A stretch of 64,000 bases of DNA from Haloterrigena turkmenica DSM 5511 (GTDB taxonomy: Archaea; Halobacteriota; Halobacteria; Halobacteriales; Natrialbaceae): the NCBI RefSeq assembly GCF_000025325.1, contig NC_013743.1, positions 3,534,001 through 3,598,000 on the forward strand, in the 5' to 3' direction. Of the stretch, positions 11,208 through 20,702 are shown piece after piece (position 1 is the first letter of the stretch; each line of letters begins with the position of its first letter). The translations under genes and the position numbers were made by a program. The notes under the pieces were generated by a model, which was not told where the DNA came from, did no database searches, and saw only the letters and a program-made list of their open reading frames with translations.

Positions 11208-12203
11208 CTACGGCCGCGGCGCGGCCTTCTGGAGGGCCGTCTCGGCGATGTTGCCGCCGTAGTCGGCGCTCCGGGACAGCGAGTCGACGATCAGCCCCAG
11301 CGACTGGGCCTGCACCGGCTCGAGCTCTCGGAGCATGTCGTCGATACGGCGGGTGTGTTCGTCGATCTCGCGGACCGACGCGAGGGCGTCGTGGCCGAGA
11401 TCCGTCGCTTCGTCGGTGTCCTCGGCGAACAGCGCGTCCATCGATTTCTCGAGGATGGTCGCGACGTCGGTGTGAACCTCCAGCAGCGCCTCGGCGACGC
11501 TCTCGGGGATTTCGTCGAGTTTCTTCGCGATCCGGCTGATCTTGACGGCATGGTCGGCGACGCGCTCGAGCTGGCGGGCACTGGAGTGGAAGTCGAAACA
11601 GTCCTCGCGGGAGACGCCGAGTCCCTCCGCTGCCCGCGGCGAGCGCAGCGTCGCGCGGAAGATCCGCGAGACGACCAGAAAGAGGCGGTCGACGTCGTCG
11701 TCGCGCTCGATGACGTCCTGAGCGATGTCGTCGTCGTCCTCGACGAGCGCCGTGACGGCGTCCTCGAGCATCGAGGTCGCGATCAGGCGCATGCGCGTCA
11801 CCGCGTTGACGATCGATAGCTCCGAAGAGTCGAGCAGGTCCTGAATGACGACGCTCTCCGTTCCCTCCTCGACGACCTCGACGCCGACCAGCCCCTGCAC
11901 GGCGCTGCGGATCGCCCGTCGCTGGTCGGTCGTAATGCGGCCCGACTCCAGGCGAATGACGTCGAAGCCGCTGACGTACATCGTCAGGACGGCCCGAACG
12001 AGCTGTTCGTCCTCGAGAGTGGAGACGTCGAGCGTCCCCTTCTGGTGGTCGGCCTCGCGCTGGGGGGTGACGAGCAGCGTATCGTCCTCCGAGTAGATCT
12101 CGACCGTCGCGCCGCTACTGATATCGTTCTCGGTAGCCCACGTCTTCGGAAGCGACACTGTGTACGTCGATCCGCCAGTCACCTGGACCTTTCGGGTCTC
12201 CAT
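11208..12203 (-). CDS. AbrB-PhoU phosphate uptake regulator
   Basis: The 331-residue protein joins an N-terminal SpoVT/AbrB-type DNA-binding domain (METRKVQVTGGSTYTVSLPK, about 1-50) to two PhoU-type helical repeats (about 110-330). PhoU repeats carry conserved acidic metal sites (ARQLERVADHAVKI). In haloarchaea such proteins are thought to couple phosphate status to transcription of the pst genes. It is divergent from pstB across a 205-base AT-rich region and is therefore a strong candidate to control it. ATG at 12203 begins the AbrB domain. Confidence 0.9.
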   Translation of the reverse strand: METRKVQVTGGSTYTVSLPKTWATENDISSGATVEIYSEDDTLLVTPQREADHQKGTLDVSTLEDEQLVRAVLTMYVSGFDVIRLESGRITTDQRRAIRSAVQGLVGVEVVEEGTESVVIQDLLDSSELSIVNAVTRMRLIATSMLEDAVTALVEDDDDIAQDVIERDDDVDRLFLVVSRIFRATLRSPRAAEGLGVSREDCFDFHSSARQLERVADHAVKISRIAKKLDEIPESVAEALLEVHTDVATILEKSMDALFAEDTDEATDLGHDALASVREIDEHTRRIDDMLRELEPVQAQSLGLIVDSLSRSADYGGNIAETALQKAAPRP

Positions 12204-12408
12204 ATGTGACGCTTTCTATGGGTACAACATAAATCTACCCGAGTCTATTGAGAAATTCTATAGTCGCGTATGTGGCCCCAATCCAGCTATATTCCCAAAT
12301 GTTGTGTCTACACCAAAACATACTCGCACCCCCATAACAGTACACAAATATATCCCTATATAGAAAACATAGCGGAGTATTTAGTTACCCCAACGAAAGC
12401 GGACCCAA
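12204..12408 (+). promoter_or_regulatory. Divergent AT-rich promoter region of phoU-like regulator and pstB
   Basis: This region is conspicuously AT-rich compared with its flanks. It contains AAATATATCC (about 12346-12355), the palindrome CTATATAG (12356-12363) and GTATTTAG (about 12378-12385). The last is about 27 bases before the pstB ATG, so pstB may be leaderless. Phosphate-responsive haloarchaeal promoters are known to bear upstream boxes near TATA elements; I cannot define such a box here with certainty. Confidence 0.6.
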
Positions 12409-13257
12409 ATGGGAATGGACGCACCGACCGGGTCACTGCATACTACCGACGAGACGGTCGCGGAGCCGGAGTCGACGACCGAGGCGCGAGCCGAAACCGA
12501 GCCGGAATCGATCGCGCTCGAGGCGAGCGACCTCGACGTCTACTACGGCGACGATCAGGCGCTCCAGAGCATCGACATGGAAATTCCCGAGGGGGAGGTA
12601 ACCGCGCTCATCGGGCCGTCGGGGTGTGGGAAATCGACGTTCCTCCGGTGTATCAACCGGATGAACGACCTCATCGATATCGCCCGCGTCGACGGCGATC
12701 TCCACTTCAACGGGAAGAACGTCTACGACGACGACGTCGACCCCGTGGCCTTACGCCGGAAGATCGGCATGGTCTTCCAGAAACCGAACCCGTTCCCGAA
12801 GAGCATTCGCGACAACGTCGCCTTCGGGCTGCAGGTCCAGGGGAAAGACGAGAACGTCGACGCGAAGGTCGAGCGGGCCCTCGAGCGAGCGGCCCTCCTC
12901 GAGGAAGTCGAGGACCAACTCGACTCGAGCGGGCTGGACCTCTCGGGCGGCCAGCAGCAGCGACTCTGTATCGCTCGGGCGATCGCCCCCGATCCGGAGG
13001 TCCTCCTGATGGACGAGCCGGCGTCGGCGCTCGACCCGATCGCCACCGCGAAGATCGAGGAACTGATCGAGGAGCTGTCCGAGGAGTACACCGTCGTCGT
13101 CGTTACCCACAACATGCAGCAAGCCGCCCGCATCTCCGACAAGACGGCGGTCTTCCTGACCGGCGGCGAACTCGTCGAGTTCGACGACACCGAGAAGATC
13201 TTCGAGAATCCCGAACACGACCGCGTCGAGGACTACATCACCGGCAAGTTCGGCTGA
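12409..13257 (+). CDS. pstB: Phosphate ABC transporter ATP-binding protein PstB
   Basis: The 282-residue ATPase powers high-affinity phosphate import. Walker A is GPSGCGKS (about 66-73), the Q-loop is [12 protein letters not shown], the ABC signature is [14 protein letters not shown], Walker B is [13 protein letters not shown], and the H-loop is VVTHNMQQA; all are intact. The phosphate-importer hallmark NRMNDL follows Walker A. The first 35 residues are an acidic extension common in haloarchaea. ATG at 12409 has an alternative at 12415. PhoU starts six bases after its stop. The cognate pstS-C-A lie 3.6 kb downstream, beyond an arsenic cassette. Confidence 0.96.
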
Positions 13258-13263
13258 CCGGCG

Positions 13264-13941
13264 ATGGCCCGGAACGAGTACCAGCGGCAACTCCAGCGGC
13301 TGCGCGAAGACGTCCTCGAGATGAGCGACCGCGTCTGTGAGCGACTCGAACAGGCGTTAGCAGCCCTCGAAACGCAGGACGAGAACCTGGCGACCGCCGT
13401 AATTACGGGCGATCACGCGATCAACGACCGCTACCTCGAGATCGAGCAGGCGTGTATTGAGTTGGTCGCGCTCCAGCAGCCGGTCGCTACCGACCTGCGC
13501 GTCGTCGCCGCCTCGTTCAAGATCAGTACCGACCTCGAACGGATCGCCGATCTCGCCGTCAACCTCGCCGAGTACGCCCAGCGGGCCGAACGGCGCCGCT
13601 ACGCCGACGTCGACATCGGCTACGTCGGCGAGCGGGTCGTCGAAATGGTCGAGGCGGCGATGGCGGCGTACGCCACCGATGACGCGGCCGGCGCCCGTGA
13701 CGTCGCGGCCGAGGACGACGAGATCGACCGTCTCTGCGAGAGCGCCAGCGAGTTCGTCATCCGGGACCTCCTCGAGACCGAACTCGAGGCCGAGATCGGA
13801 CTCACGCCCGACGCGCTCTCTGACGAGGTCTCGCGGCTGTTGCTGACGATCCGGGACTTAGAGCGGGTCGGTGACCACGCGGTCAACATCGCCGCGCGGA
13901 CGCTGTACATGGTCGAAAACGACGACGAACTGATCTACTGA
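13264..13941 (+). CDS. phoU: Phosphate signalling protein PhoU
   Basis: This 225-residue protein has two PhoU repeats with the acidic metal-binding motifs TDLERIADLAVNLAEY and RDLERVGDHAVNIAAR. PhoU binds metal clusters and restrains PstB and the phosphate response under phosphate sufficiency. It is directly behind pstB and probably translated from the same message. It is distinct from the AbrB-PhoU regulator encoded divergently. Confidence 0.95.
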   Translation: MARNEYQRQLQRLREDVLEMSDRVCERLEQALAALETQDENLATAVITGDHAINDRYLEIEQACIELVALQQPVATDLRVVAASFKISTDLERIADLAVNLAEYAQRAERRRYADVDIGYVGERVVEMVEAAMAAYATDDAAGARDVAAEDDEIDRLCESASEFVIRDLLETELEAEIGLTPDALSDEVSRLLLTIRDLERVGDHAVNIAARTLYMVENDDELIY

Positions 13942-13959
13942 GCCGCGTCTCGGCGTCGG

Positions 13960-14320
13960 TTACTCGATCGCGACCACGGCATCGACGGTCACGACCGCGC
14001 CGCCGAGGAGTCGCAGACGCGACGGTCGTCCGCGCCGGGCGTGTCTCGTCGAAATACGATCGGTACGTCTCGTCGACGTCCTCGTAGGCGTCCATCTCCG
14101 CCAAGTAGAGCGTCAGCTTGAGCACGTCGTCCGCCGTACGGCCGCGCCGCTCCAGTTCCGACTCGAGGATCGCCAGGCAACGCTCGAGCTGCCGGGACGG
14201 CGGCCCGTCGATCCGGAGCCGGCCGTCGGATTCCGGAAGCTGTCCCTCGACGAAGAGGTTGGCCGAACTCCCCGTTTTGTTTCCGAACGCGCCGGTAAAC
14301 GCCGTTCCGTCGCGTTGCCG
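13960..14320 (-). pseudogene. RidA/YjgF-like pseudogene
   Basis: On the minus strand, the frame descending from about 14290 reads NLFVEGQLPESDG, then LAILESELERRGRTADDVLK, then LTLYLAEMDAYEDVDETYRS and ARTTVASAT. This is the body of a RidA (enamine/imine deaminase) family protein. At 14008 the frame breaks: one base out of step, the sequence continues LGGAVVTVDAVVAIE to a TAA at 13960-13962, the proper family C-terminus. Upstream the frame has no ATG, GTG or TTG before a stop at 14408-14410. Both the 5' end and the reading frame are therefore damaged. The upstream limit is approximate. Confidence 0.7.
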
Positions 14321-14519
14321 TCGGCCGCTCTCGCTCGCTCGGGAGTCGTTCGAACGGGACGCGGTTCGTCGGCTCGGTTTGTTCTCGTAGGTTGGTTTAG
14401 AAATCGTTCAAGTAGAAGATTTCCGTGATGGTCGATAGATGGAGTAATACTCCCTATAGATCGGATAGAGAACGCAGCAACCGGAATAATTAATTGAATA
14501 GCTTCTCAACTCGATCTCG

Positions 14520-14918
14520 ATGGCACAAGCGACGGACCGACTACAGCGATACCTCGAGGACGAGCTCGGCGAGTGTCGCAGCGAGGACCTCGAGTGTCGC
14601 CTCGAGGAACTCGACGCGCTCGAGGAGACGATCGGGACGACTCGAGTCGAAACGGAACTGGACGTGCTCTCGGCGCTGGCCAACGAGACGCGCTATACGC
14701 TCGTTCGCGTCCTCGTGGCGGCCGGCGAGGAGCTGTGCGTCTGCGAGCTCAACGCGGTCGTCGACGTCAGCGAGAGCGGGCTCAGCCACGCCCTCTCGAA
14801 CCTCGTCGACGCGGGACTCGTCGACGCCCGGAAGGACGGCCGCTGGAAGAAGTACCGCGCAACCAACCGCGCAGTCGCGCTCGTGACGGTCCTCGAGGGG
14901 AGCGTGAGCGATGCGTAA
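14520..14918 (+). CDS. arsR: ArsR family metal-responsive repressor
   Basis: This 132-residue protein has a winged-helix ArsR domain from about residue 45 (DVLSALANETRYTLVRVLV). ELCVCEL (about residues 71-77) matches the metal-binding ELCVCDL motif that senses arsenite. SGLSHALSNLVDAGLV forms the recognition helix and wing. A 40-residue acidic helical N-terminus precedes it. The stop overlaps the transporter gene start by eight bases, so the two are translationally coupled. It should repress the cassette until arsenite binds. Confidence 0.92.
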   Translation: MAQATDRLQRYLEDELGECRSEDLECRLEELDALEETIGTTRVETELDVLSALANETRYTLVRVLVAAGEELCVCELNAVVDVSESGLSHALSNLVDAGLVDARKDGRWKKYRATNRAVALVTVLEGSVSDA

Positions 14919-16071
14919 CGCGACCCACGACCACGGGCCGGACTGCAGCTGCGAGGCCTGTGGCGATCCGCGGTCGATGGACTTCCTCGACAAGTACCTG
15001 ACCGTCTGGATCTTCGCCGCGATGGCCGTCGGCGTCGGCCTCGGCTACGCGGCGCCGTCCGTGACCGAACCGATTCGGGACCTCCACCTCGTGGAGATCG
15101 GGCTCGTCGCCATGATGTACCCGCCGCTGGCGAAGGCGGACTACGGGCGGCTTCCGACGGTGTTTCGCAACTGGCGCGTGCTCAGCCTGAGCCTCGTCCA
15201 GAACTGGCTCATCGGCCCGACCCTGATGTTCGGGCTCGCGGTGTTCTTCTTCAGCGGACTCGTACCCGGCCTCCCGGCCCGTCCCGAGTACTTCCTGGGA
15301 CTCGTGTTCATCGGGATGGCCCGGTGTATCGCGATGGTGCTCGTCTGGAACGAACTCGCGGAGGGATCGACCGAGTACGTGACCGGACTGGTCGCGTTCA
15401 ACAGCCTCTTCCAGATCGTTACCTACGGCGTCTACGTCTGGTTTTTCGCCCTGTTCTTGCCGCCGCTGCTGGGCATGGAGTCGCTCGCCGCCGAAATCAC
15501 GACGTTCAACGTGACGCCCGAACAGGTGTTCTGGGCGATCGTCGTCTTCCTCGGCATCCCCTTCGCCGGGGGAATCCTCACCCGATACGTCGGCACGCGA
15601 GCGAAGGGCGAGGCGTGGTACGACGAGGAGTTCGTCCCGACGATCGACCCGCTCACGCTGGTCGCCCTACTGTTTACCGTCGTCGTGATGTTCGCCACGC
15701 AGGGCGAGAACATCGTCGCCGCGCCCGCGGACGTGTTGCTGATCGCCGTCCCGCTGACGATCTACTTCGTCGTCATGTTCCTCGTGAGCTTCGGCATGGG
15801 CCGAGGCGTCGGCGCCGACTACTCGACGACGACGGCCATCGGCTTCACCGCGGCCTCGAACAACTTCGAACTCGCGATCGCTGTCGCGGTCGCCGTCTTC
15901 GGCGTCGGCTCCGGCGTCGCCTTCACGACCGTCGTCGGCCCGCTCATCGAGGTCCCCGTGTTGCTCGCGCTGGTCCACGTCGCGCTGTACTTCCAGCGGA
16001 AACTGGACTGGGGCGGCCGCGACGCCGGCGAACCGACCGTATCGACTCGAGAGACGCCCACCGACGACTAA
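14911..16071 (+). CDS. ACR3-family arsenite efflux transporter
   Basis: The 386-residue product has about ten membrane segments and the ACR3 hallmarks. These are MMYPPLAKADY, the essential cysteine in FIGMARCIAMVLVWNELAEG, and TAASNNFELAIAVAVAVFG near the end. It exports arsenite from the cytoplasm with the proton or membrane potential. The N-terminus CSCEAC (about 13-18) may bind arsenic. It is coupled to arsR by an eight-base overlap and is followed after 15 bases by the reductase-like gene. Confidence 0.94.
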   Translation: MRNATHDHGPDCSCEACGDPRSMDFLDKYLTVWIFAAMAVGVGLGYAAPSVTEPIRDLHLVEIGLVAMMYPPLAKADYGRLPTVFRNWRVLSLSLVQNWLIGPTLMFGLAVFFFSGLVPGLPARPEYFLGLVFIGMARCIAMVLVWNELAEGSTEYVTGLVAFNSLFQIVTYGVYVWFFALFLPPLLGMESLAAEITTFNVTPEQVFWAIVVFLGIPFAGGILTRYVGTRAKGEAWYDEEFVPTIDPLTLVALLFTVVVMFATQGENIVAAPADVLLIAVPLTIYFVVMFLVSFGMGRGVGADYSTTTAIGFTAASNNFELAIAVAVAVFGVGSGVAFTTVVGPLIEVPVLLALVHVALYFQRKLDWGGRDAGEPTVSTRETPTDD

Positions 16072-16086
16072 CCGATACCGAGACCG

Positions 16087-16539
16087 ATGACATCCACCAC
16101 CGATTCCACCGACACGACCGAACCGATCCGTATCGCCCTCGTGTGCGTCCGCAACGCCGGCCGCTCCCAGATGGCCACCGCCTTCGCCGAGTACGAACGC
16201 GAGGCCCGCGGCCTCGAGGACCGCGTCGAGATCCTGACCGGCGGCACCGATCCCGCCGACGCGGTCCACGACGGCGTCCTCGAGGCGATGGCCGACGCCG
16301 GATTCGACCTCTCCGATCGGACACCCCGCGAGATCACCGAGGACGAACTGCGATCCTGCGACTACATCGCGACGATGGGCTGTTCGACCCTGGACGTCGG
16401 CACCGTCGGCGAGGACGTCGACGTCCGCGACTGGGCGCTCGAGGATCCCGGCGAGAAGGAGCCTGAGCGCGTCTGCGAGATTCGCGACGAGGTCGAGCAG
16501 CGGGTAACGGCGCTTTTCGACGACTTCGAGGGCGAATAG
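16087..16539 (+). CDS. Low-molecular-weight phosphatase family, probable arsenate reductase
   Basis: This 150-residue protein has the LMW-PTPase loop C-V-R-N-A-G-R-S (about residues 20-27) and a later DWALEDP with the catalytic Asp. In this family, arsenate reductases (ArsC type) turn arsenate into arsenite for export. Its place behind arsR and acr3 favours that role. The loop reads CVRNAGRS rather than the usual arsenate reductase CTGNSCRS. It therefore lacks the second loop cysteine and may use other thiols, or be a phosphatase. Confidence 0.82.
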   Translation: MTSTTDSTDTTEPIRIALVCVRNAGRSQMATAFAEYEREARGLEDRVEILTGGTDPADAVHDGVLEAMADAGFDLSDRTPREITEDELRSCDYIATMGCSTLDVGTVGEDVDVRDWALEDPGEKEPERVCEIRDEVEQRVTALFDDFEGE

Positions 16540-16754
16540 CCCGTCAAGTCTTCGAGCGGTACTGATTCTCGAGTCGAGTCGGAGCGCTCCAGTGCGGGTA
16601 TATAGAATCGCCGTTCTGCCCTCGAGTGATCGATCTGTTCCCGTTCGGATACTGTCTCGAAACACAACCAGTAGTTTCGAAATTATCCCTAACAGGCCCT
16701 ATTGGAACAGTTTTCACCGGTTGATCGATTCGCGTACCGATCGGCCAGTACCGG

Positions 16755-16782
16755 GATATATAGGTACGTACGAATATATATC
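16755..16782 (+). promoter_or_regulatory. Candidate operator/promoter dyad upstream of pstS
   Basis: The arms GATATATA (16755-16762) and TATATATC (16775-16782) are perfect inverted repeats. They flank GTACGTAC (16764-16771), itself palindromic. The dyad lies 45-72 bases upstream of the pstS ATG, and either arm could be a TATA box. The whole 16540-16826 interval is AT-rich relative to its surroundings and has no ORF I can support. Confidence 0.55.
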
Positions 16783-16826
16783 AGTCATAGCATCGCTTTT
16801 CTATAATCTGTGGAACCGTTCTGGTG

Positions 16827-17813
16827 ATGGCAGACGACAAGTCCGGCCGTTCGACGCAACGCGTTTCACGACGGAAATTCATCGGTGCCGCCGGCGCCGT
16901 CGGCGCCGTTGCGATCGCTGGGTGCACTGAAGAGACGAGCGACGAGGACAAGGAGATCGACATCGCGGGCTCGAGTACCGTCTACCCGCTGATGGAAGCG
17001 ATCAGCGAGAAGTACAACGAGGACGAAGACGACAGCGTCGGATTCAACATCAGCTCGACCGGTTCCGGCGGCGGCTTCGAGGATCACTTCTGTCCCGGCG
17101 AGACCGACTTCAACAACGCGAGCCGGGCGATGAAGGACGAGGAGAAGTCGAAGTGCAAAGAGAACGACGTCGAGTGGATCGAACTGGTCGCCGCGACGGA
17201 CGCGCTGACGGTCGTCATCAACAACGAGAACGACTGGGCGACCGAGATGACCATTGAGGAACTGGCCCAGATCTGGGAGGCCGACGCCGCCGAGACGTGG
17301 AGCGACGTCAACTCCGAGTGGCCCGACGAGGAGATCGGTCGCCACGGCGCCGACGACACCAGCGGAACCTACGACTACTTCCTCGAGAACGTCATGGGCG
17401 AAGACCGGGGCCACACGGACGACTACCAGGCGACCGAAAACGACGACAACATCGTCACTGGCGTCCAGGGCGACCAGTACGCCATCGGTTACTTCGGCTT
17501 CTCGTACTACTATCAGAACCCCGACCAGGTCACGGCCGTGGCGATCGACAACGGCGACGGTCCCGTCGAACCGAGCCTGGATACCGCGGCCTCCGGCGAG
17601 TACCAGCCGCTGTCGCGCTCGCTGTACACCTACCCCTCGGTCGGCTCTCTCGAGGACAAGGATCACGTCGCCGACTTCGCACGTTTCTTCGTCGAGCAGA
17701 CGACCAACGAGAGTCTCGTCGCCGACGACGTCGGCTACGTGCCCCTCACCGAGGACCAGCAGTCCGAACAGATGGACAAGCTCGTGGAAGTAATCGGCGA
17801 GGAAGAGGAGTAA
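16827..17813 (+). CDS. pstS: Phosphate ABC transporter substrate-binding protein PstS
   Basis: This 328-residue lipoprotein begins with a Tat signal (SRRKFIG, R15-R16) and a lipobox ending at C33, so it should sit outside the membrane. Phosphate-binding elements AGSSTVYPL, STGSGGGFEDH, DDTSGTYDYF and GYFGFSYYYQN are clear. It delivers phosphate to PstC/PstA. ATG at 16827 is preferred over the GTG three bases earlier. It leads the pstSCA part of the split operon. Confidence 0.94.
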   Translation: MADDKSGRSTQRVSRRKFIGAAGAVGAVAIAGCTEETSDEDKEIDIAGSSTVYPLMEAISEKYNEDEDDSVGFNISSTGSGGGFEDHFCPGETDFNNASRAMKDEEKSKCKENDVEWIELVAATDALTVVINNENDWATEMTIEELAQIWEADAAETWSDVNSEWPDEEIGRHGADDTSGTYDYFLENVMGEDRGHTDDYQATENDDNIVTGVQGDQYAIGYFGFSYYYQNPDQVTAVAIDNGDGPVEPSLDTAASGEYQPLSRSLYTYPSVGSLEDKDHVADFARFFVEQTTNESLVADDVGYVPLTEDQQSEQMDKLVEVIGEEEE

Positions 17814-17962
17814 CCGATCACGATGACTCGGTGTATTGTCGGAAGCCAGGCAACTCGATTCGGCGGGGACCGGCAGCGGCTCTCTCGGTTGTCCCTTTTT
17901 TACCGACGTGATTGCGGAGTCGACCATCGTCCGATCGGATCGCCACCGCGCGGTGATCAGCC

Positions 17963-18937
17963 GTGAGTGACGCATCGGCAACGCCGGATCTCCAGCGGTC
18001 CCGGGGCATCGAGGCCCTCAAGGAGCGATCCTACGGGAGTTTTTTCGTCGTCTGTGCGGTCATTACCGTCCTCACGACGATCGCGATCTTCGTGACGCTG
18101 CTTTCGGACGCGACCGCGTTCTTCTCGGAGTACGCGATCGCCGACTTCCTGACCGGGACCACGTGGAGTCCGAACCCGAGAGGCGACGGCTACATCTTCG
18201 GGATCCTTCCGCTGGTGATCGGAACGATTACCGTGACCCTCATGGCCGCGCTGGTCGCGCTGCCGATCGGAACGCTGACGGCGATTTACCTGAGCGAATA
18301 CGCGAGTACGCGCGTTCGATCGGTTCTGAAGCCGATGCTGGAGATCCTCGCCGGGATTCCCACGGTCGTGTACGGCTACTTCGCGCTCGTGTACATCACG
18401 CCGGTGTTGAAGGCGACGCTGTTCCCGTCGCTGCAGACGTTCAACGCGCTCTCGGCGTCGCTGATGATCGGGATCATGATCATTCCGATGGTCTCGTCGA
18501 TCAGCGAAGACGCCATGAGTGCGGTTCCGGACGAGCTCCGGCAGGCCGGCTACGGTCTCGGCGCTACCAAGTACGAGGTCTCGACGAAGATCGTCCTCCC
18601 GGCGGCGATGTCCGGGATCGCCTCCTCGTACATCCTCGCGATCTCGCGGGCGATCGGGGAGACCATGATCGTCGTCGTCGCGATGGGGTCACAGGCCACC
18701 TTCCCCGAGGTCTACACCGGTCTCGGCGGGATCCCCTACATCCATCCCGGGGACGTGCTCCTCGAGTCCGGCATGACGATCACCGTCGCGATGGTCAACA
18801 TCGCCGGCGGGGACCTCACCGGGGGAACGCTGCCCTACGACGCGATGTTCGCGCTCGGGCTACTGTTGTTCGTCGTCACGCTCGTACTGAACGTGATCAG
18901 CGATTGGATCGCGCAACGATACCGGGAGGAATACTGA
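17963..18937 (+). CDS. pstC: Phosphate ABC transporter permease PstC
   Basis: The 324-residue permease has about six membrane segments. It also has the binding-protein-dependent transport loop ELRQAGYGLGATKYEVSTKIVLPAAMSGI, whose conserved EAA-type glycine contacts PstB. TYPICAL features such as PLVIGTITVTLMAAL and GIPTVVYGYFALVYI are present. It starts with GTG at 17963, supported by GGTGATC at 17952-17958, an excellent match to the haloarchaeal anti-Shine-Dalgarno. It is followed after one base by pstA. Confidence 0.94.
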   Translation: MSDASATPDLQRSRGIEALKERSYGSFFVVCAVITVLTTIAIFVTLLSDATAFFSEYAIADFLTGTTWSPNPRGDGYIFGILPLVIGTITVTLMAALVALPIGTLTAIYLSEYASTRVRSVLKPMLEILAGIPTVVYGYFALVYITPVLKATLFPSLQTFNALSASLMIGIMIIPMVSSISEDAMSAVPDELRQAGYGLGATKYEVSTKIVLPAAMSGIASSYILAISRAIGETMIVVVAMGSQATFPEVYTGLGGIPYIHPGDVLLESGMTITVAMVNIAGGDLTGGTLPYDAMFALGLLLFVVTLVLNVISDWIAQRYREEY

Positions 18938-18938
18938 A

Positions 18939-20702
18939 ATGGCTGTCGAACACGATCAACAGACGACCGGATTTGGCCAGGTGAGTCGGCTCAAAGGACT
19001 CGTCTTCGAATACCTCTCGTTCGGCGCGTCCGTCGTCGGCATCCTCGCGCTGGCGGTGTTGCTGATCTACGTCACCGTCGACGCGTTCGAACTCAGCAAC
19101 GCCAGCCCCGAGTGGCTGCTGACCTACGTTGCCACGCTAGTCGTCCCGTACGTCGGCTTCTGCCTCTACAGCGCGAACGACCGCGAGGTGACTCGACGCG
19201 TTGGACTCGCGCTCGGCGGTGGACTGATCGCCACGCCGGTCGTGATCAACGGGTTCGAACTGCTCGTGCGACCGATCCCGCGTCTCGGTTGGCACCTCGT
19301 CTACCTGTTCGCCGTCGTGATACCGGTTACGTGCTACAGCACCTACGTCGGCAGCCAACGACCCGTCGGTCGGGTCGGCTTCGGATTCGTCGGTCGACTC
19401 CTCGGAGGGACGGCTCTCGGAATCGCGCTGATCCTCCTGTTCGTCGTCTTCGACCAGTACCTCTGGCTGTTGACGTACACCTTCGGGCTGGTTCCGGCGG
19501 CCGCCGCGTTGGTGTACAGTCGGTACCGCGAATCGGATCTGACGGCGCTGCTGGCCTATCCGATTGGTGCGGTCGGTCTCGGCGCCGCGTTCTACGTGCG
19601 CGGACTGTTCGACGTGTATCCGACCACGTGGTTGATATTCATCTGGACGCTGGCGATTCCGGCCTCCGGAGCCATCGCCGCGGTCGTCGCTCGCGACGAG
19701 GATACCCGGACCGGCCTCATCCTCGGCGGCGTCGCCTTCCTGTTGGCTGTCGGCGGGAGTTTCGCGGCCGGGCAAGTCGGTATGGAGTCGAAAAACGTAC
19801 TACTGGTCCTGCTGACGACCGGCATCCCGACGGTCGCGTTCGGCCGACGGACGTTCACCGCCGAGCGGGGGCGAATCGGACTGCTCCTGCCGGTGCTGAT
19901 CGTCGCCGGCGCGGTCCTCGGAACCGTCCTCGTCAGGACGATGGGATTCCCGGGTCCGAACTCGTGGCTCGACCCGTCGTTCGTGACGGGAAGCGCCTCG
20001 TCGACGGCGCGGGACGCAGGGTTCTACCCGCCGATCGTGGGCTCGGTCATGATCATCGCCTTCGTGGCGCTGGTCTCGTTCGTGCTCGGCGTCGGCTCCG
20101 CAGTGTTCCTCGAGGAGTACGCCAGCGACAGCGGGATCACCGGCGCGATCACGCGCGTGATCCAGATTAACATCGCCAACCTTGCCGCCGTTCCGTCGGT
20201 CGTCTACGGACTACTCGGGCTCGGGCTGTTCATCAATCTGCTCGGGCTCGGTATGGGGGCGATCGTCACCGCGGTGCTCACGCTGTCGCTGCTGATCCTG
20301 CCGATCACGATCATCTCGGCCCAGGAGGCGATCCGGTCCGTTCCGGACGATCTCCGCAACGGCTCCTACGCGATGGGTGCGACTCGGTGGCAGACGACCC
20401 GAAACGTCGTCCTCCCCGAAGCGTTCCCGGGCATTCTGACGGGGACGATCCTCGCACTCGGCCGCGCGATCGGCGAAACGGCGCCGCTGATCATCATCGG
20501 CGTTCCCCACCTCACCTACTCTCCCCCGAACGGAATCTGGGACAAGGCGAGCGCCATGCCGCTGCAGATCTACGTCTGGTCGCATTCGGCGATCGGCGAG
20601 TTCCGGTACGGCGTCCTCGCCGCCGGGGTCGTCACGCTCCTGTTCGTGCTGATCGGGATGAACGCGACCGCGATCATCCTCCGGAACCGCTTCGAACGCT
20701 AA
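18939..20702 (+). CDS. pstA: Phosphate ABC transporter permease PstA with long N-terminal membrane extension
   Basis: The product is 587 residues, about twice a usual PstA. Residues from roughly 355 on form the permease domain (GFYPPIVGSVMIIAFVALV, VPSVVYGLLGLGLF, and the coupling loop DDLRNGSYAMGATRW). The first 350 residues hold about eight extra hydrophobic segments with no named domain. The extension is in frame and has the same base composition as the rest, so it looks like a lineage-specific addition rather than a fusion artefact. It starts one base after pstC. Confidence 0.92.
   Translation: MAVEHDQQTTGFGQVSRLKGLVFEYLSFGASVVGILALAVLLIYVTVDAFELSNASPEWLLTYVATLVVPYVGFCLYSANDREVTRRVGLALGGGLIATPVVINGFELLVRPIPRLGWHLVYLFAVVIPVTCYSTYVGSQRPVGRVGFGFVGRLLGGTALGIALILLFVVFDQYLWLLTYTFGLVPAAAALVYSRYRESDLTALLAYPIGAVGLGAAFYVRGLFDVYPTTWLIFIWTLAIPASGAIAAVVARDEDTRTGLILGGVAFLLAVGGSFAAGQVGMESKNVLLVLLTTGIPTVAFGRRTFTAERGRIGLLLPVLIVAGAVLGTVLVRTMGFPGPNSWLDPSFVTGSASSTARDAGFYPPIVGSVMIIAFVALVSFVLGVGSAVFLEEYASDSGITGAITRVIQINIANLAAVPSVVYGLLGLGLFINLLGLGMGAIVTAVLTLSLLILPITIISAQEAIRSVPDDLRNGSYAMGATRWQTTRNVVLPEAFPGILTGTILALGRAIGETAPLIIIGVPHLTYSPPNGIWDKASAMPLQIYVWSHSAIGEFRYGVLAAGVVTLLFVLIGMNATAIILRNRFER

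Follow-up and report, generated by a model that had tools for sequence, protein, structure and literature searches.

The window analysed here is a 64,000-nucleotide stretch of the Haloterrigena turkmenica genome (C1:3534001-3598000; the whole genome comprises 5,440,782 bp in 7 contigs) in which a short arsenic resistance cluster lies among genes for phosphate transport. On the left is phoU (13264-13941, plus strand; Pfam PhoU), a pst cluster gene that lies outside the ars module and is found in the same place in 6/6 genomes of the genus. To the right, also on the plus strand, are arsR, encoding an ArsR-family regulator (14520-14918; Pfam HTH_5), acr3, encoding an arsenite exporter (14911-16071; Pfam SBF, with 80% identity to a Halorubrum protein, L117, that passes the acr3 model TIGR00832), and a gene for an arsC-type arsenate reductase of the low-molecular-weight phosphatase family (16087-16539; Pfam LMWPc), whose reductase role is assigned from its position. 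Each of these four is an open reading frame. Between phoU and arsR, on the minus strand, lies the remnant of a further gene (13960-14388), separated from arsR by a region that carries two copies of an inverted repeat.

The initial annotation of this stretch, made from sequence alone, had described the remnant as a RidA-like pseudogene at the pst/ars junction, and both its identity and its siting are confirmed: a PF01042 match is found on the minus strand at C1:3548015-3548266 (window 14015-14266) with a score of 49.8 bits (cut-off 27.3), and the relic sits between phoU and arsR. The range first given, 13960-14320, located the relic correctly but was too short, as alignment with relatives extends it to 14388. 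Translation shows, as had been noted, that the RidA frame remains intact as far as ARTTVASAT, with the C-terminal end, LGGAVVTVDAVVAIE, read in another frame; this part comprises the last 15 residues and the stop codon at 13960-13962. A scan of the minus-strand reading frame likewise found no in-frame start codon before the next upstream stop, as the annotation had stated.

The nature of the damage is less simple than it first seemed. Lesions were called by aligning the intergenic region of H. turkmenica (G000) with that of five other genomes of the genus (G001-G005). The aligned start codon, at 14386-14388 on the minus strand, reads ACG where four relatives (G001, G002, G004 and G005) have ATG; a 4-bp deletion relative to four relatives shifts the frame at 14341/14342; and single bases have been lost at 14020/14021, relative to G002 and G005, and at 14010/14011 (coordinates of the start codon and of the two single-base losses were derived by hand). 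A frameshift-aware alignment places the same three frame changes in the relic, at window amino acids 17, 125 and 129. The two 1-bp deletions together produce an apparent net +1 change, which the initial annotation had taken for one extra base at 14008: the net effect on the frame was read correctly, its cause was not. The relic therefore carries four lesions (a lost start codon, a 4-bp deletion and two 1-bp deletions). Amino-acid-changing differences make up 6/11 of those in H. turkmenica (5 being synonymous) against 1/5 in G002, numbers too small for significance.

Could these lesions be sequencing errors in a gene that is really intact in H. turkmenica? Two of them are single-base losses in two-base runs, which would fit such a reading, but we regard it as very improbable, because the four lesions are independent, one of them removing 4 bp and another altering the start codon, because sister species carry other lesions in the same gene and because, according to the accessible part of the genome report, Sanger, 454 and Illumina reads were combined in a finished sequence with a stated error of less than 1 in 100,000 (PMC3035258). 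Beside the dead Rid copy the reading frames of arsR, acr3 and arsC are open, and a profile search finds seven other PF01042 loci in the H. turkmenica genome.

As the initial annotation had proposed, the intact gene was sought in relatives, and it was found in two of them. All six genus genomes share the gene order pstB-phoU-[Rid]-arsR-acr3-arsC-pstS-pstC, followed by pstA in the five other than G001, whose stretch stops short of that gene. In G002 and G005 a 144-codon Rid reading frame stands intact between phoU and arsR, with a dN/dS between the two of 0.18 (NG86) or 0.13 (YN00), from which we conclude that the gene has been kept by selection there. G001 and G004 have lost around 150 bases from within the gene; in the intact G002 copy, a 12-bp direct repeat occurs at the two ends of the segment deleted in G001 and G004, its copies 149 bases apart, and the loss is consistent with a repeat-mediated deletion. 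In G003, alignment of the phoU-arsR region and a locus scan found no recognisable Rid copy. In a tree built from six flanking genes, the intact G005 is basal, followed by G003 (absent) and H. turkmenica (relic) and then by the intact G002 together with the deleted G001 and G004. This order of states implies at least three losses among the six genomes if a lost gene is not regained, and rejects a single loss event in the genus. Since phoU-Rid-arsR stands intact in two genomes (G002 and G005) and the gene order is common to all six, the ars/pst junction must be older than the damage.

The surrounding pst genes show features of their own. The pst cluster around ars is permuted in the genus genomes, with pstB-phoU on one side of ars and pstS-pstC-pstA on the other (window 11208-20702, window genes assigned by Pfam; L129-L134), and a second pst cluster is present at about G000:C1:2541000-2549000. 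The products of pstS-pstC-pstA at window 16824-20702 share 95-99% identity with their G004 counterparts, compared with only around 47-60% for G001, G002, G003 and G005 (the pstA comparison being made without G001), whilst ArsR, Acr3 and ArsC beside these divergent genes show identities of 87% or more. We read the differing pstS-pstC-pstA identities as putative allele exchange adjoining ars.

Where does the Rid gene occur beyond the genus? Searches with the intact G002 protein at E ≤ 1e-25, a cut-off set after the best paralogue had been seen at 1.6e-25, gave matches in 36/125 genomes of the family and in 55/392 genomes of the order, the order-wide search scoring the best 10 or fewer candidates per genome. 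The two lists yield 78 distinct genomic places, all of which were read: an ArsR-family or Acr3 homologue lies within 1.5 kb at 74 of the 78, and Acr3 is present in the sequenced stretch (at most 5 kb) at 67. The four exceptions, with neither homologue in the stretch searched, are L058, L080, L194 and L195; wider stretches (L194-L196, L199) still revealed no arsR or acr3 at these places. By way of control, none of 24 other PF01042 (paralogue) loci of the genus has arsR or acr3 within 1.5 kb on either side. A scan with a 12-orthologue alignment found 33 loci in named genomes, of which 31 are haloarchaeal and two bacterial. All 31 haloarchaeal loci have arsR and/or acr3 homologues, in one case (L111) only a 65-residue piece of ArsR, and the two bacterial loci encode remote Rid proteins without either. 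The genome sets overlap (L096, for example, is on a record matching G279:C3 in length) and many loci come from close relatives, so these counts are not of independent events.

Several layouts are seen: the Rid gene may be divergent from arsR, as in the window, may lie between arsR and acr3, or may be duplicated within larger arsenic islands. Some copies are on plasmids, where they are annotated 'RidA family protein' (H1 and H5, the records of L096 and L106). In other families the orthologues adjoin arsR-acr3 without phoU alongside (e.g. G060); pst genes are also nearby in G060 and some other genomes, and at many loci none were found. Since orthologues stand beside arsR or acr3 in many genomes that lack an adjoining phoU, the Rid gene forms part of the ars half of the junction.

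These findings bear on the origin of the relic. That the broken gene lies exactly between phoU and arsR had led the initial annotation to suggest a break point left by the ars insertion, in other words a chromosomal RidA gene next to phoU that was interrupted when ars arrived. This fits poorly with the association of orthologues and arsR-acr3 in other families and with the two of six genus genomes in which Rid is intact though ars is already present; moreover, the damage consists of small indels and loss of the start codon, with no truncation at the ars end. We therefore consider an ars insertion a most unlikely cause. Instead, with a probability of roughly 85%, we identify the relic as what is left of a gene accessory to the arsR-acr3-arsC module of haloarchaea, a gene which we call ars-linked Rid, a reading that covers both the identity of the gene and its membership of the ars module.

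Two groups of loci deserve separate mention. Halorubrum islands L117 and L122 carry two ars-linked Rid copies together with genes for ArsD, an ArsP-type permease, extra ArsR proteins, an aquaglyceroporin and Acr3, with ArsA also present in the L117 stretch. The Acr3 match in L122 is split where the translation has an undetermined residue, and the break may be an assembly gap. A 541-amino-acid protein in the L117 island was considered as a transposase, but has no Pfam match at E 1e-10. In genome G101, an intact ars-linked Rid gene (L058/L196) lies beside a 35-amino-acid arsR-like fragment, and arsR-acr3-arsC without Rid is found elsewhere on the chromosome (L201); the Rid gene and the ars genes have apparently become detached from each other.

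Intact loci of the divergent layout have, between arsR and Rid, two copies of a TTGA-N8-TCAA inverted repeat: one stops around 10 bases short of arsR and the other, in most loci, 4 to 7 bases short of the start of Rid. Both are present in the window: the arsR-side copy (14494-14509) is the only perfect match in the entire window, whilst the Rid-side copy (14396-14411) has one mismatch. With up to one mismatch allowed, the arsR-side copy was found in 28/28 intact divergent loci and the Rid-side copy in 27/28 (5/28 being perfect), although the pattern had been read by eye from the same alignment on which these counts were made. In a shuffling control, 3.9% of single-base-shuffled Rid-side windows matched; this control was run with L094, discussed below, counted as intact (29/29 on the arsR side, 28/29 on the Rid side). 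All 13 relics keep the Rid-side copy. A lone match with one mismatch is weak evidence, since the window has 15 matches at this level, 13 of them one-mismatch matches elsewhere in the window, against 5.8 expected. Six islands were also scanned, and L115 and L192 lack a perfect copy. We consider both repeats candidate ArsR operators, and their placement suggests that ArsR may control the Rid gene in the divergent layout.

The Rid-side copy can also be recognised where the Rid gene is gone. It is kept, with up to one mismatch, at 7/10 Rid-less loci (L151, L150, L160, L149, L147, L146 and L164), a putative 'ghost operator'; in L150, L160, L147 and L146 a gene that we judged from its sequence to be 2Fe-2S ferredoxin-like is present on the other strand.

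How often has the gene been lost? We examined 30 of the 91 Acr3 places in the family, taking the best Acr3 scores and one place per genome. ArsR was present at all 30 and Rid was intact at 11, a relic at nine and absent at 10; an open acr3 is partly built into this sample because the loci were chosen by Acr3 score. A second set was drawn from 109 arsR-upstream regions; removing 48 whose first 300 bases duplicated those of another region left 61 unique ones. Ten of the 61 were set aside as non-divergent and unscored for lesions (L082, L076, L079, L078, L027, L122, L117, L123, L121 and L081). The remaining 51 distinct divergent loci comprise 28 with intact Rid, 13 relics and 10 from which the gene is absent, a set biased towards presence, as many of its loci were fetched with the Rid query. 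An ArsR+Acr3 tree made by a quick method requires 11 or more changes between an intact and a non-intact gene, five of them forced by well-supported branches. L094, which has a stop at the codon 2 position and no start codon, was counted as a relic; with L094 counted as intact, the number of changes is 10.

The lesions themselves are varied. Besides the window relic, frameshifts are present in L154 (amino acid 70), L159 (amino acid 81) and L116 (amino acid 63), in-frame stops in L089 and L095 and large deletions in L032, L033, L157 and L145, and the start codon has been lost in the window relic, L159 and L094. Five of the 13 relics (L154, L116, L089, L095 and L094) have a single lesion, and these five could be assembly errors; the other eight, that in the window included, have several lesions or large ones. 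The single frameshifts and stops in relatives, four of which cluster near amino acids 63-71, might also be taken as a sign of programmed frameshifting, with the gene being expressed across the frame change. This is extremely unlikely, as the lesions lie at different places and shift the frame in both directions, the group at amino acids 63-71 includes two different stop codons, and neither the large deletions nor the lost start codons fit such a mechanism. The ars-linked Rid gene decays repeatedly while the arsenic pump stays and, having been lost so often, cannot be essential to arsenic resistance. The reverse pattern was observed in L073 and L113 (Natrinema hispanicum DSM 18328), where the arsR and acr3 matches are in pieces and Rid is open; here either the assemblies are at fault or the pump has decayed next to a Rid gene that was retained.

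The intact protein is a recognisable member of the Rid family. An intact orthologue scores 66.1 bits against PF01042 (cut-off 27.3), and the sequence profile also matches Rid proteins of solved structure. The predicted structure of the L096 protein has a mean pLDDT of 79.5, with most of residues 41-140 above 90 and most of residues 1-29 below 50, and its fold matches YabJ (5yu2; Foldseek E 3.9e-10) as well as chains of RidA and TdcF. Sequence comparisons were made with 38 orthologues, a set that leaves out L089 and L095, with their in-frame stops, and includes L094. In all 38, a Glu occupies a position that is Ala in 17 and Ser in seven of the 24 Rid paralogues. This Glu is part of an FxEGxLP motif, and together with the QR of a conserved R[KR]QRxG motif, which lies N-terminal to the domain in the region predicted with low confidence, it separates the orthologues (38/38) from the paralogues (0/24). 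The window relic retains both marks, reading FVEGQLPE and RRQRDG. An exception is a Halorubrum copy (L117, L122) in which Gln replaces the Glu. On these sequence marks, the orthologues are a haloarchaeal Rid subfamily marked by Glu.

The catalytic arginine (Arg117, equivalent to Arg105 of TdcF by alignment to solved Rid chains) is present in 38/38 orthologues. The column read from the alignment as the active-site Glu120 of TdcF is occupied by Asp in 33, Glu in three, Arg in one and Asn in one. In the accessible part of a published study of the family, loss of the arginine is reported to nearly abolish activity in plant and Salmonella RidA (PMC4433059).

What might the protein do? In the mechanism that we propose, arsenite would release ArsR from both repeats, switching on the pump genes and Rid together; the Rid protein would, by analogy with its family, remove reactive imines or enamines such as 2-aminoacrylate, and levels of such metabolites would go up once arsenite interferes with thiol and pyridoxal-phosphate enzymes. 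The benefit would depend on conditions, making Rid useful but dispensable, and this condition-dependence would account for its frequent loss. In H. turkmenica both the start codon and the frame of the gene are gone, while the frames of arsR, acr3 and arsC remain open. That the intact protein is a hydrolase of this kind, clearing imine or enamine metabolites raised by arsenite, is a tentative proposal. We think it somewhat doubtful, though possible, that ars-linked Rid would instead represent an unrecognised ArsR-controlled arsenic resistance component whose pocket has been re-shaped by the change from Ala or Ser to Glu, acting on a metabolite that forms or builds up only under arsenic stress and not through standard 2-aminoacrylate chemistry.

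Two further possibilities concern the protein itself. In many orthologues one Cys is found in helix 1 and another after the catalytic Arg, and the gene shares islands with arsD, as might be expected of a cysteine-based arsenite chaperone like ArsD; nevertheless, the last 125 residues of 8/38 orthologues are free of cysteine and ArsD is separately encoded in the same island, making a chaperone in place of a Rid hydrolase improbable. Chlorinated RidA has been described as a holdase, and the altered motif residue (Glu) and the conserved R[KR]QRxG motif in the low-confidence N-terminal region could point to a stress holdase or a regulator. We consider such a non-enzymatic role unlikely, the catalytic arginine being kept in every one of the 38 orthologues, and the hydrolase remains our tentative choice.

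Searches pairing Rid with arsenic or ars, subscription journals lying outside their scope, found no literature that links the two. Nor did term searches of the accessible text of four papers (PMC4433059, PMC12029414, PMC8563766 and PMC3600143) find a link between Rid and ars, and the string 'arsen' is absent from the main text of PMC4433059 as accessible. Within the searchable literature, then, the ars-linked Rid subfamily appears to be undescribed. The pseudogene itself is an ordinary relic and the interest lies in the subfamily behind it: a Rid protein whose gene accompanies those for arsenic pumps in several haloarchaeal families, seemingly under the same switch. This leads to the testable claim that arsenic stress generates a metabolite or harms proteins in a way that a dedicated Rid protein counters. 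As the gene has repeatedly disappeared from beside the pump, there are also natural pairs of strains, with and without Rid, in which arsenic tolerance can be compared.

In comparison with archetypal RidA/YjgF/YER057c/UK114 proteins, ars-linked Rid is alike in fold, in its PF01042 match and in the conserved catalytic Arg, but falls below the TIGR00004 cut-off of 106.25 bits (63.3 for the G002 orthologue, 46.2 and 45.2 for the L117 copies), has Glu in place of Ala or Ser and possesses the extra R[KR]QRxG motif. The genomic partners also differ, with ars genes accompanying ars-linked Rid whereas Rid family genes are described, in the accessible part of PMC4433059, as clustering with genes for PLP enzymes. 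It resembles the ars accessory genes arsD, arsP and aqpS in being sited inside arsR-acr3 clusters and, in the divergent layout, in apparently sharing an ArsR-type operator.
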